Below are positions 40,054-52,793 of a stretch of DNA of 64,000 nucleotides, in pieces (within the stretch, counting starts at the first letter, position 1; each line of letters begins with the position of its first letter). Under the pieces are notes generated by a model. That model did not search any database. It was given only the letters and a program-made list of their open reading frames with translations, and was not told the DNA's origin. The position numbers were made by a program, and so were the translations under genes. Source of the stretch: Candidatus Nitrospira neomarina (GTDB lineage Bacteria; Nitrospirota; Nitrospiria; Nitrospirales; UBA8639); NCBI RefSeq assembly GCF_032051675.1, contig NZ_CP116968.1, forward strand, positions 1 to 64,000. The letters run 5' to 3'.

Positions 40054-41706
40054 TTAATTGTTTAGTAAACTCTCCAATTGTTGTCGAACAATCGGTTCCC
40101 GCAATTTTTTTAAGGCGATGGCTTCGATCTGCCGGATCCGTTCTCGAGTGACCCCTAAGCTTTGTCCGATTTCTTCCAATGTGGATTCTTCGTCGTGCCC
40201 GATGCCAAACCGCATGCGAAGGATGCGTTCCTCTCGTGGGCTCAACGCTTTAAGGAGGCGGGAGATGGCGGCTTTCGAGCTGTATTCCTCCGAAATCTTT
40301 AAGGGTGAAGGCGCTTCGTGGTCCTCAAGTATATCTCCGAGTGTACCCTCACCATGTTCATCTAAGGGGGAGTCCAGGGAAACGGGATCATGGGAGCCCT
40401 CCAAGATTCCTTGCACTTTTGCAACCGGTAGCCCGGTGTTTTCCGCCAGTTCTTGTAGAGTGGGCGTTCGTCTCAATCGTTGAGTAAGATGCTGTGAGGT
40501 CTTCTTAATTTTTTGGGTAATCTCATAGATATGTACGGGCCTTCGAATAGTGTTCCCCTTTTCGGCAATGGCTCTGGTGATGCCCTGTCGAATCCACCAT
40601 GTGGCATAGGTGCTAAACTTATAGCCACGTGCATAATCAAATTTATCGACCGCTCTCAACAACCCAATGTTGCCCTCTTGGATTAAATCCAAAAAATGTA
40701 ACCCCCGGTTCGTGTAGTGCTTGGCCACACTCACGACTAAGCGCAGATTGGCTTCAACCATTTTGGCTTTTGCCTGATGAACCTGGGCGACGGTCTGCTC
40801 GAGGATTTCACAGGAATACAAAAATTCCAGGTGCGGCATCAAAATAAGAGACGTTTCGATCTCCCGAATACGTGCCAGAGCTTTTCTGGAGGCATTCCCG
40901 GGTTGTTTGCTGCCGCTGGTTTCCAAGACCCGTTGGTGGGTGAGAATTTCTTCTTTAATCTGGTGAATTCCCTGAATCAGGGTTTCCTGTACGTCGGGGC
41001 GCAAGTTCAAGGCATCTATTCTTTTTATCAATTGTTGAATAGGTTTTTTGAAGGAGGCAGAAGTACGGAAATTATCTGGTGCGGAGCCATGCAGGGTCAG
41101 ACGTTGTGCAAAATGGGACAGAAATGGTTTGGCTAACCGGGCGATCGCATCCAGATGCTTGAGAGTCTTGTGGAAATTTTGTCCTGCCTCGTGCCGGGTT
41201 TCAGATACAGGAGTTTCGCCTTCTGACTCAGCTGCGGAACTCATGATGACCAGATCACTGACACGGAGGTCTCCTGTGCGTAATTGATCTCGAAACGCAA
41301 GGAGACGAACAAGGATGACGGGTAAGCTGAAAAGGGTCAAGACTAAATTATTGGTTCCCTCTTTGATCTGTTGAGCAAGCTGGAGCTCGGTATCTCGTGT
41401 CAACAGCGGGACCCGACCAATGTCTTTCAAAAAGAGAGGGATCGTCATATTAGCGGTCACGGGATCTTCCTGATATGGATGGGTGGGTTCCATGAATTCG
41501 TCAGGATAGGAGTCTGGAATCTTATTGCCGGTCTTTGGGCCCTGTTCCTCAAAAGATGAGCGAAAAGACTGAAATGAGGTTGATAATTCCGGAGAAGTAC
41601 CGGATGAATACATCAGGCCATCCTGCTGGAGGGAGTAATTTTTCAAGACCCGGTTTTTCTTTCCCGATCGTTGCAAGGGTTGATGGAGGAATTCACTTGA
41701 TGCCAT
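40054..41706 (-). CDS. RNA polymerase sigma-70 family factor (RpoD/RpoS-like)
   Basis: 550 residues from the ATG with GAGGACACC upstream. Region 1.2 ([20 protein letters not shown]) precedes a long acidic/variable insert, then region 2 ([40 protein letters not shown]), region 3 and region 4 ([40 protein letters not shown]). The domain order fits a primary-type sigma factor, but the N-terminal 1.1 domain is not evident and the insert is shorter than in E. coli RpoD. It may be a second, alternative primary-like factor for stress. Confidence 0.93.
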
Positions 41707-41780
41707 GGTGTCCTCGCTTTCTCTTGCACACAATTTCACTTCCAACCGAATCGTTCGTGCTTAGCGTATGAAGCAAATTC

Positions 41781-41918
41781 TTCGCTCTGGTCATTCCACT
41801 CATTCTTCATGTTCATAACCGAAAATCCCTTTATTCCAGTCCCTCTTCCAGTTTGGATTCTGGGTTGTGCTCCCAACCGGATCCCGTCGAACATTTCCTT
41901 CAATTGACGTACCCTGAG
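41781..41918 (-). repeat. Dispersed 140-bp repeat, copy 2
   Basis: Minus strand starts CTCAGGGTACGTCAATTGAAGG and ends TGAGTGGAATGACCAGAG, aligned end to end with 25339-25478. It overlaps the last codons and stop of the zinc-ribbon gene at 41900, so this copy supplies that protein's C-terminus. Confidence 0.6.
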
Positions 41919-42127
41919 GCAAGCTGGAGTTCCTTTTTTCCACTCTGGTCATTTATCATTCCGCGGGCTTTGAGAATGGTCGTATCTACCGTTTCTCCGC
42001 AGTTGAGGCACCTCAATACTTCCAGATGGTGAAACTGCCCCTCGAGATTATAAATGCTATCTCGTACTAACAGCCCTTTACACCGTTGGCATTTCATCAT
42101 CTCTGCACCCATCTGTTCAGTTGTCAT
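41900..42127 (-). CDS. Small zinc-ribbon protein
   Basis: 75 residues with two CxxC knuckles, MKCQRCKGLLVRDSIYN and LRCLNCGETVDTTIL, separated by about 25 residues, so a zinc ribbon. RBS AAGGAGG precedes the ATG. Paralogs lie at 43905 and 52599. It is divergent from the hxlR gene, with operator repeats between them. The C-terminus overlaps the dispersed repeat. Zinc sensing, RNA binding or protein docking are possible roles; nothing decides. Confidence 0.8.
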   Translation of the reverse strand: MTTEQMGAEMMKCQRCKGLLVRDSIYNLEGQFHHLEVLRCLNCGETVDTTILKARGMINDQSGKKELQLASGYVN

Positions 42128-42184
42128 GAAATTATTTCCTCCTTTTGGAAGCGGTTACTTGCACCTTAATCCCATGCTAGTTAT

Positions 42185-42230
42185 GATAAGTAACTAGTTA
42201 CAAAAGTAAAGTAGGTACTATAAAGTAACC
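42185..42230. promoter_or_regulatory. Operator region between zinc-ribbon and hxlR genes
   Basis: A perfect palindrome GTAACTAGTTAC (42190-42201) is followed by a second imperfect site (GTAGGTAC ... AAAGTAAC) that abuts the hxlR start. HxlR/YodB-type repressors bind such GTA-TAC dyads. A near-identical stretch lies at 44151-44196, upstream of the second zinc-ribbon gene. Confidence 0.65.
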
Positions 42231-42671
42231 ATGAAATTGCCTCCCAGTTCCTTCGGATGTCCGTTGGATTCTCTTCTTCGTGTTCTTGCCGGACCGTGGA
42301 CGATTTATATCCTCTGTCGCCTGCATAACAATGGGGAAACCCGTTTTGGCCAGCTCAAGCGCCAAATGCCGGGTATTTCCTCAAAAATGTTGACCGAGCG
42401 ATTGCGGTCGTTGGAGAAGGCTGAAATTATCTTTCGTCACCAAGCCCCGACCATTCCTCCCCAGGTGACCTATGGGCTCACTACAGAGGGACGGGAACTC
42501 ACCACGATTCTTGATCAAATTAATACATTGGCTGGCCGATGGCAGGATCTTGAGACCAAAAAGACCGCAAACACCAACATTCAGGGAAAAGACACAAAAG
42601 GAAGAAAAACGGTAGCTCAATATTCCAGGATTTCTCCCTCCAAAAAAGAAAAAACTGAACGGAAAAATTAG
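42231..42671 (+). CDS. HxlR-family transcriptional regulator
   Basis: 146 residues; winged-helix HxlR domain: CPLDSLLRVLAGPWTIYILC, RFGQLKRQMPGISSKMLTER, LRSLEKAEIIFRHQ, PPQVTYGLTTEGREL. The Cys10 before the first helix is the residue used for thiol or electrophile sensing in YodB/HypR relatives; a further Cys29 is present. A basic tail (KDTKGRKTVAQYSRISPSKK) is unusual. It probably represses itself and the zinc-ribbon genes through the GTAAC-GTTAC sites. Confidence 0.9.
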   Translation: MKLPPSSFGCPLDSLLRVLAGPWTIYILCRLHNNGETRFGQLKRQMPGISSKMLTERLRSLEKAEIIFRHQAPTIPPQVTYGLTTEGRELTTILDQINTLAGRWQDLETKKTANTNIQGKDTKGRKTVAQYSRISPSKKEKTERKN

Positions 42672-43096
42672 GTGAACATGGTTCTCGCCAAAGGGTGTAA
42701 GGCCTTGGCATCAACAGGACATGGGAATTTCCCTCGGGAATGTGAGACAATTTTGTCTCTAAACCAGTCTGAAAGTCATCTGCCAAGTAATCCTCATCAC
42801 CCAACCACTTGCTGGAAGGAATGCGTGATATCGTCCGGGGCTTTGACTGTCGTGGAAAGGCGATCTGCCGCAATGGAGGGAATGTATGTCCGGCCAGACC
42901 CGAACAGCTTTCGCTGGAAATGTTCCTGAGCTGAGGATTCTCCCGGACGAAAAAGGACTGCAGCCGATTAAGTCGAAAGGGAGAGAATTGAAGGAATCCG
43001 GCTAGGAAGGTACTTTTCTGGTTTTAACAATCCCGCCACCTTCGGTTTTTTAAGTGTGAAGTCCGCTCCCGATTTCGGAAATGAACGCTAGCCGGT
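42672..43096. other. Intergenic region, no gene seen
   Basis: 425 bases between convergent hxlR and PDZ genes. One open frame (42672-42929) follows hxlR directly but has no family character. Hairpin evidence is weak. Confidence 0.35.
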
Positions 43097-43591
43097 TTAA
43101 CTTTTTTCAACTCGGACAAAGTGAAAGTTAATTCCGCCGCTGATTCCCTGGTTGTCGGGGTCAGACGGTTCATAAGTTGCCACGGAAAAATTTTCTGTGG
43201 GCAACGCGTCCTGTAGAGCCAGGCCGAAATCCTCCAGGGTGGTCACCTCGACAGAATTGATTTCCTTGATGAGGGCGCGGGGTTTTATGCCGGCAAGGGC
43301 CGCAGGTTTTCCCCCGATCACCTCAAAAACGACCACGCCTTTTGCGCGCTCTAAGCCCAGAAAATCCCGTATTTCTTCGTCCACTTCTCCGACGATGATG
43401 CCGAAGTCTTCTCCCAATTTTATGGCCTGTTCTTTGGTCATGGCCTGAGGAGCGGTTTCAGCATGAAGCAGATAGGGGTTTCCCAACGAGAAAGCCAAGA
43501 TCATGCTCACAATCGCCCCCTGCCCAATATGAGCAAGTAGTCCGCCGAGCCGGTGGATTCTATGTTGGATAGTCGGACGAATCATGTTCAT
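43097..43591 (-). CDS. Secreted/periplasmic PDZ-domain protein
   Basis: 164 residues from an ATG after GGGAGG (an ATG two codons later is equally possible). A hydrophobic signal or anchor (GAIVSMILAFSLGNPYLLHA) is followed by one PDZ domain: LGEDFGIIVGEVDEEIRDFL, GVVVFEVIGGKPAALAGIKP, LIKEINSVEVTTLEDF. PDZ domains bind C-termini; here no protease is attached. It probably serves as an envelope adaptor. Confidence 0.82.
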   Translation of the reverse strand: MNMIRPTIQHRIHRLGGLLAHIGQGAIVSMILAFSLGNPYLLHAETAPQAMTKEQAIKLGEDFGIIVGEVDEEIRDFLGLERAKGVVVFEVIGGKPAALAGIKPRALIKEINSVEVTTLEDFGLALQDALPTENFSVATYEPSDPDNQGISGGINFHFVRVEKS

Positions 43592-43700
43592 CATTACCTC
43601 CCTTTTAGCCGGACAGATTCCTGCAGAAAATGATTTACCCAATACATGAATTTTCCTTCTTGGTCGAATTCATGAAGGGCGATTTTTTTAGGCACACTAA

Positions 43701-43847
43701 TCACCGGCATCCATTGGGATGTTGCGTTAGTCTCCGCCTGAATAACGGGATCATCCTGGCTGCCAAGCACTGTCCGCTAAAGAGTCCGGCCAGGATCATG
43801 CCCATGAGAAAGTACTGAAAGTTAAGTTCTCCGAAAATTTCTGCCAT
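43701..43847 (-). CDS. Possible 48-residue membrane protein
   Basis: An open frame starts at an ATG (43845-43847) preceded by AGGAAAGGGAA and reads MAEIFGELNFQYFLMGMILA, then GLFSGQCLAARMIPLF. One hydrophobic helix and a basic tail (RRRLTQHPNGCR) give the form of a small membrane protein. It lies between the PDZ gene and the second zinc-ribbon gene on the same strand, so it may be part of one operon. No homolog recognised. Confidence 0.45.
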   Translation of the reverse strand: MAEIFGELNFQYFLMGMILAGLFSGQCLAARMIPLFRRRLTQHPNGCR

Positions 43848-43904
43848 CGGCAATTCCCTTTCCTGTTTTCATGAGACCAAATCGAATCGATACAAATAAG
43901 GTGT

Positions 43905-44093
43905 TTAGACCAGGACCTCTTCTTGCTTAGCTGTCACGCTACTCTTTTCCACTTGACGGGTTTTCAATAGAGTGAGATCAACGACATGGCCGCAATTGAG
44001 GCATCTTCCCATTTCAATTTCTAAAAATTGTCCGTCCACGTTAAAAATACTGTCTCTCACCATGAATCCTTTGCAGCGTTCGCATTCTCCCAT
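43905..44093 (-). CDS. Small zinc-ribbon protein
   Basis: 62 residues: MGECERCKGFMVRDSIFNVD and MGRCLNCGHVVDLTLLKTRQ. This is clearly a paralog of the gene at 41900 (same CxxC spacing and the VRDSI-N--GQF core). Its upstream region duplicates the 42185 operator. It heads a possible minus-strand operon with the small membrane ORF and PDZ gene. Confidence 0.8.
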   Translation of the reverse strand: MGECERCKGFMVRDSIFNVDGQFLEIEMGRCLNCGHVVDLTLLKTRQVEKSSVTAKQEEVLV

Positions 44094-44150
44094 TTTGTCA
44101 CCTTCAGTTACATTATAACCATTTTTGCCACGGCCCGCTTTTTAGGTTAA

Positions 44151-44196
44151 GATAAGTAACCAGTTACTAAAGTAAAGTAGTTACCGAAAAGTGACT
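44151..44196. promoter_or_regulatory. Duplicate of the HxlR operator
   Basis: GTAACCAGTTAC (44156-44167) and the following GTAGTTACCG-AAAGTGAC closely copy the operator at 42185. The match continues about 30 bases into the start of hxlR (TTGAAATGCCT ... TCGGATG), but no hxlR coding remains. The 327-base gap 44094-44420 holds no other gene. Confidence 0.7.
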
Positions 44197-44230
44197 TTGA
44201 AATGCCTTTGAAAGTTTTTCGGATGATTCC
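44197..44230 (+). pseudogene. Vestige of a second hxlR start
   Basis: TTTGAAATGCCT ... AGTTTTTCGGATG aligns to the first codons of hxlR at 42231 (TGAAATTGCCT ... AGTTCCTTCGGATG). The homology then ends. Only this piece of a second, divergent regulator gene survives. Confidence 0.5.
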
Positions 44231-52598: not shown

Positions 52599-52793
52599 TT
52601 AGGCAACCTCTTGAGCATGTTTGGGGGAGGATTTGTCTTGGCCATGTTTGCGATTGGATAGGGTTTGCACATCAAAGATTTCCCCGCAATTTACACATCG
52701 CCATTCATAAATCCACACAGTGTTATGAATATTTTCCATATTCAGACAGGTATCCATGACCATCAACCCATGGCAGCGGGAACAATCCATCAT
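52599..52793 (-). CDS. Small zinc-ribbon protein
   Basis: 64 residues from ATG after GGGAGG. MMDCSRCHGLMVMDTCLNME and YEWRCVNCGEIFDVQTLSNR place CxxC pairs with the same spacing as the proteins at 41900 and 43905. The basic tail differs. It lacks the GTAAC operator, so the three paralogs are not all under the HxlR site. Confidence 0.75.
   Translation of the reverse strand: MMDCSRCHGLMVMDTCLNMENIHNTVWIYEWRCVNCGEIFDVQTLSNRKHGQDKSSPKHAQEVA

Follow-up and report, generated by a model that had tools for sequence, protein, structure and literature searches.

The window analysed here, a stretch of 64,000 nucleotides, comes from the genome of Candidatus Nitrospira neomarina, a single contig of 4.8 Mb. 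Its closest relatives with names are MAGs of the Nitrospirales, among them NPIRA03, NPIRA06 and the isolate UBA8639. The family UBA8639 corresponds to lineage IV Nitrospira, nitrite oxidisers of marine and saline habitats (PMC12342949), and we infer that this genome belongs to that lineage. The comparison set contained 61 genomes, including same-genus and same-family relatives (Nitrospirales, UBA8639-like). The locus contained the following features:

40054–41745, minus strand: group-2 sigma-70 factor; the genome encodes several RpoD-like paralogues, of which this is one
41900–42127, minus strand: ZR1, an open reading frame for a small zinc-ribbon protein of 75 aa with two CxxC motifs
42183–42210, minus strand: predicted ZR1 promoter, TTTACT-N16-TATCAT (9 of 12 positions matched; conserved)
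42190–42201, no strand: op1 palindrome, GTAAC-TA-GTTAC
42214–42229, no strand: HxlR-typical box, GGTAC-N6-GTAAC, which overlaps the start of hxlR and whose conservation extends to other genera within the family
42231–42671, plus strand: hxlR, an intact HxlR/DUF24 regulator of 146 aa (PF01638)
43097–43642, minus strand: PDZ-domain protein, separating the two cassettes
43905–44093, minus strand: ZR2, a paralogous zinc ribbon of 62 aa, by similarity to ZR1
44149–44176, minus strand: predicted ZR2 promoter, TTTACT-N16-TATCTT, read directly from the sequence
44180–44195, no strand: second box of the HxlR type, GTTAC-N6-GTGAC, with erosion seen in several species
44196–44225, plus strand: hxlR2 remnant, the first codons (~30 nt) with no open frame, by similarity to the hxlR start

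A direct-repeat search matched positions 42180–42259 to 44146–44225 over 80 nt at 75% ungapped identity. The gapped local core of this repeat (42180–42242 against 44146–44207) scored 69, and the maximum among 500 dinucleotide-preserving shuffles was 34. Outside the palindrome and promoter core, 42214–42259 and 44180–44225 were identical at 29 of 46 positions, and 44180–44225 was the top match to 42214–42259 on both strands of the window (runner-up 26). Each repeat copy adjoined a small zinc-ribbon gene, and the two genes were paralogous (61% amino acid identity over 46 aa, E 7e-22). The original prediction, that the operator and the hxlR start recur beside paralogous zinc ribbons, was thus borne out; it was to fall if the alignment outside the palindrome proved no better than random, and because the best match in the window lay there, it stands. 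A chance repeat was ruled out by the shuffles, by the best-match status outside the palindrome and by the genome-wide uniqueness of the operator: the 25-nt core AGTAACNNGTTACNAAAGTAAAGTA occurred exactly twice in the 4.8-Mb genome, even with 3 mismatches.

ZR1 was divergent from hxlR and had a Shine-Dalgarno sequence, AGGAGG. The ZR proteins have two CxxC knuckles that would be placed for one Zn: residues C4, C7, C31 and C34 were invariant in 24 zinc-ribbon sequences, with a spacing that suits a single ion. The predicted fold (pLDDT 80) was strand-strand-strand-helix: a ribbon formed by a beta-hairpin, followed by a helix at the C terminus. The best hits of the fold search, RPB9, ZifS, MqsA-N and TFIIS, were non-significant (best Foldseek E 0.38). 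Searches of Pfam, NCBIfam, PDB sequences and folds gave no significant match that would indicate a function, and no Pfam model scored above cut-off. About 15 relatives of these zinc ribbons were present in the genome, and the operator was found only at ZR1 and ZR2. They form an expanded family of small zinc ribbons with the pattern CxRCxG...CxxCG, whose further members lie at 52620–52790 (minus strand) of the window and at about 12 other genomic sites. In one congener, G003, ZR1 (locus L046, 8703–8930, turned with hxlR on the plus strand) had an early stop and had lost the second CxxC; ZR1 may be decaying in this genome, where ZR2 is intact.

The hxlR product scored 88.2 bits against PF01638 (curated cut-off 20.8; E 3e-25). 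Its Cys10, a conserved N-terminal cysteine in the sensor position, was invariant in 21 orthologues and aligned with the sensor Cys of Bacillus subtilis HxlR and YodB; Cys29 was less conserved. The equivalent cysteine senses electrophiles in both YodB and HxlR (PMC8063818, PMC7835342). Thiol sensing by Cys10 is a conjecture that its invariance permits, and a one-cysteine switch responding to electrophiles or oxidants is possible. A related HxlR locus, L127, apparently lacks the Cys, which counts against sensing by Cys10. A formaldehyde switch of the Cys-Lys kind was rejected: CPL stood instead of CEK, so that the protein had no Cys-X-Lys pair. No Shine-Dalgarno sequence was found at hxlR, and its mRNA is probably leaderless. 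The gene had an operator of the family geometry upstream of its own start (GGTAC-N6-GTAAC, 42214–42229), likely its autoregulatory site.

The arrangement of these genes differed among relatives. Elsewhere in the family a single cassette was found, in the order sigma-70 factor, zinc ribbon, operator and hxlR (G029), or, in another genus of the family, sigma factor, PDZ, zinc ribbon and hxlR (G025). Nine members of the genus had the double arrangement: ZR1, op1, hxlR, PDZ, ZR2, op2 and the place of the lost hxlR2. In the zinc-ribbon tree, built from a short protein with a few rows on long branches, ZR1 and ZR2 formed sister clades inside the genus (ZR2 99/95, ZR1 88/82). An ancestor with one cassette, in the order seen in G029, and a tandem duplication near the base of the genus are well supported by these sequence comparisons.

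The decay of hxlR2 could be followed through the genus. Congener G020 retained a full-length hxlR2 pseudogene (E about 1e-41) with 87–89% amino acid identity over the first 56 codons, followed by a frameshift and stops; G012 had a faint remnant, and most other congeners had none left. Similarity to hxlR fell from z 61 in G020 to 6 in G012 and about 2 in the present genome. Past codon ~10 the second copy of this genome scored 222, below the shuffle maximum of 228, so its likeness to hxlR was not significant. These data confirm the original picture of a duplicated cassette with a decayed regulator, in which one hxlR is intact and the second is reduced to its start. G020 also contained a copy of the 3′ end of a pyruvate-phosphate dikinase (PPDK) gene between hxlR1 and PDZ (80% amino acid identity over 70 residues; L047, 769–1028, turned with hxlR on the plus strand), the scar expected of a tandem duplication. 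This PPDK fossil was found in G020 only and was undetectable between hxlR and PDZ in the window. The main PPDK gene of G020 aligned in only two pieces, with residues 365–472 unmatched.

The tree did not resolve how the G020 pseudogene branches relative to the hxlR1 of its congeners, and gene conversion between the hxlR copies may have occurred there. In G013 an intact hxlR lay beside a ZR2-type zinc ribbon that was partial at a contig edge (L054, 1–546, turned with hxlR on the plus strand); reciprocal loss in this lineage is possible. In G009 contigs L044 and L052 each contained a sigma factor, ZR1-type zinc ribbon, operator and hxlR; either the cassette was duplicated a second time there or the MAG is mixed.

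The second operator outlasted the second regulator. With the alignment register fixed on the palindrome, the 34-nt operator/promoter TTAAGATAAGTAACTAGTTACTAAAGTAAAGTAG was 98–100% identical in eight species that had lost hxlR2; identities were 72% at fourfold-degenerate sites of PDZ, 52% in the zinc-ribbon leader and 51–58% in the hxlR2 remnant. A search of the 61 genomes with up to 2 mismatches returned 26 operator matches, 25 of them at these cassettes. The operator was found in 13 of 13 congeners with an hxlR orthologue and in 0 of 8 without hxlR. Given this constraint on both operators and their co-occurrence with hxlR, the data are best read as one HxlR repressor with a regulon of two genes, and phylogenetic footprinting supports the predicted control of both zinc-ribbon genes, probably by the single surviving HxlR. 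A larger regulon was rejected: the genome had no further operator sites beyond the two cassettes, and a third GTAACNNGTTAC (1,102,619) fell within a pilin-like coding frame.

Within the conserved block, five GTAAC/GTTAC-like half-sites lay within 40 bp. The palindrome GTAACTAGTTAC was wholly inside the 16-nt spacer of the predicted ZR1 promoter, and GTAAC-CA-GTTAC (44156–44167) sat in the spacer of the predicted ZR2 promoter. Promoter-like sites were no more numerous than in shuffles; at the ZR2 promoter, every hexamer and half-site position was identical in nine species. The N6 box at the second site drifted (half-sites 0.73 and 0.89), while the promoter, the palindrome and a GTAAA half-site there were invariant. 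This pattern would fit an autoregulation that was lost with its gene and a zinc-ribbon control that was retained.

The part of the prediction that assigned this control to GTAAC-N2-GTTAC needs modification: that element is conserved at genus level inside the zinc-ribbon promoter spacer, but the geometry seen near other HxlR genes is GTTAC-N6-GTAAC, which forms a separate, adjacent box in the window. Of 19 distant HxlR genes, 6 had a match to GTTAC-N6-GTAAC upstream at 9 of 10 positions or better, against 0.07 expected; GTAAC-N2-GTTAC was not enriched in the same 19 regions. Perfect copies of GTTAC-N6-GTAAC, a candidate for a general HxlR operator, lay upstream of HxlR genes in L129 and L131, from MAGs labelled Alphaproteobacteria and Akkermansia muciniphila.

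Since the dyad does not have the family geometry, and since it stays intact at the second site where the N6 box erodes, an unlinked, different DNA-binding protein could recognise GTAAC-N2-GTTAC, with HxlR confined to the N6 box where its own gene starts. We consider this improbable: the operator was confined to genomes with hxlR and nearly always lay beside these cassettes, the dyad half-sites were identical to HxlR half-sites and matched those found next to HxlR genes in other phyla, and in related genera GTAAA and some of the dyad are retained at an unchanged distance from hxlR. Slightly less credit is due to the idea that the conserved 34 nt serve the adjacent group-2 sigma factor as a dedicated promoter, with HxlR regulating nothing but its own gene. 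The sigma gene (40054–41745) is the ancestral cassette neighbour in several genera, the conserved block holds plausible −35 and −10 hexamers, and the congeners without hxlR G008 and G010 also lack this sigma factor. Yet the sigma gene is missing from some congeners that keep their operators: G003, G014 and G016 had no orthologue (the best matches, at 53%, were different sigma paralogues), and their operators were perfect at both cassettes in G003 and G014 and at the only cassette seen in G016. For a promoter alone, an invariant spacer with strict dyad symmetry would also be unusual. That the second site is a non-functional duplication fossil, still uneroded, has hardly any probability left, for although the hxlR remnant downstream is plainly non-functional, conservation of the second site far above the fourfold-degenerate sites and the adjacent remnant excludes a neutral fossil.

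Control of both zinc-ribbon genes by the surviving HxlR could have arisen as follows. An ancestral divergent pair of a zinc-ribbon gene and hxlR, with a common operator-promoter region, was duplicated in tandem, after which hxlR2 became a pseudogene and was lost. Selection would have preserved the second operator, since it still serves the remaining HxlR dimer as a site of action in trans. With the dyad between the −35 and −10 of each zinc-ribbon promoter, binding should block RNA polymerase and repress transcription, and the HxlR-type box over the hxlR start would provide autorepression. If an electrophile or oxidant modified Cys10, the repressor would bind DNA less tightly, and ZR1 and ZR2 would be induced together. 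The duplication, the stages of decay, the constraint on both operators and their co-occurrence with hxlR are seen in the sequences themselves; HxlR binding, repression and Cys10 sensing are the steps that we infer. Taken as a whole, from duplication and regulator decay through the selected operator and joint repression to Cys10 sensing, we regard the model as likely.

We propose more tentatively, and with some doubt, that this is a thiol- or electrophile-sensing HxlR repressor whose whole regulon consists of two paralogous single-domain zinc ribbons, perhaps a zinc/thiol-buffering or an RNA-polymerase- or ribosome-associated stress module of nitrite oxidisers, the second member having been gained by duplication of cassette and operator and later loss of the duplicate regulator. 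The locus would be a natural case of how a regulon acquires a new member: once the cassette has doubled, the redundant regulator decays and its operator persists, with species at different stages of decay still extant. Small zinc ribbons also provide a specific, testable HxlR target in nitrite-oxidising bacteria, where control of thiol stress is little studied. In a full-text literature search, no paper was found that connects HxlR regulators with zinc-ribbon targets.

Several known systems resemble this one. TFIIS/RPB9/MqsA-N-type small zinc ribbons share the predicted fold and two CxxC knuckles with the ZR proteins, the fold matches being weak and non-significant. The nearest NCBIfam models to the HxlR protein were Campylobacter RrpA/RrpB (2e-14, below cut-off), which are autoregulated redox regulators of the HxlR type (PMC4508579); they act on katA-type peroxide defence, whereas zinc ribbons are the predicted targets here. 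The best characterised structural relative was B. subtilis HxlR, a formaldehyde-responsive activator (7bzd/7bze, E about 3e-16). Its Cys11 aligns with Cys10, but the Lys13 on which its Cys-Lys formaldehyde crosslink depends (PMC7835342) corresponds to Leu12, so that this mechanism is unavailable here, and no hxlAB lies near the present gene. Thiol-sensing repressors of the YodB/QsrR type (MarR/DUF24) are alike in the PF01638 fold, in an N-terminal Cys where helix 1 begins, in an autoregulated gene divergent from its target and in a dyad with TAC...GTA half-sites. The spacing is unlike that of YodB, which prefers TACT-N7-AGTA (PMC8063818). The present protein also differs in having only Cys10 and the less conserved Cys29, in a small zinc-ribbon target in place of a reductase or dioxygenase, and in two target promoters obtained through duplication. 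The system belongs to a kind already described, in which an HxlR regulator controls its own gene and a divergent target; its zinc-ribbon target is unusual and its duplication history clear.
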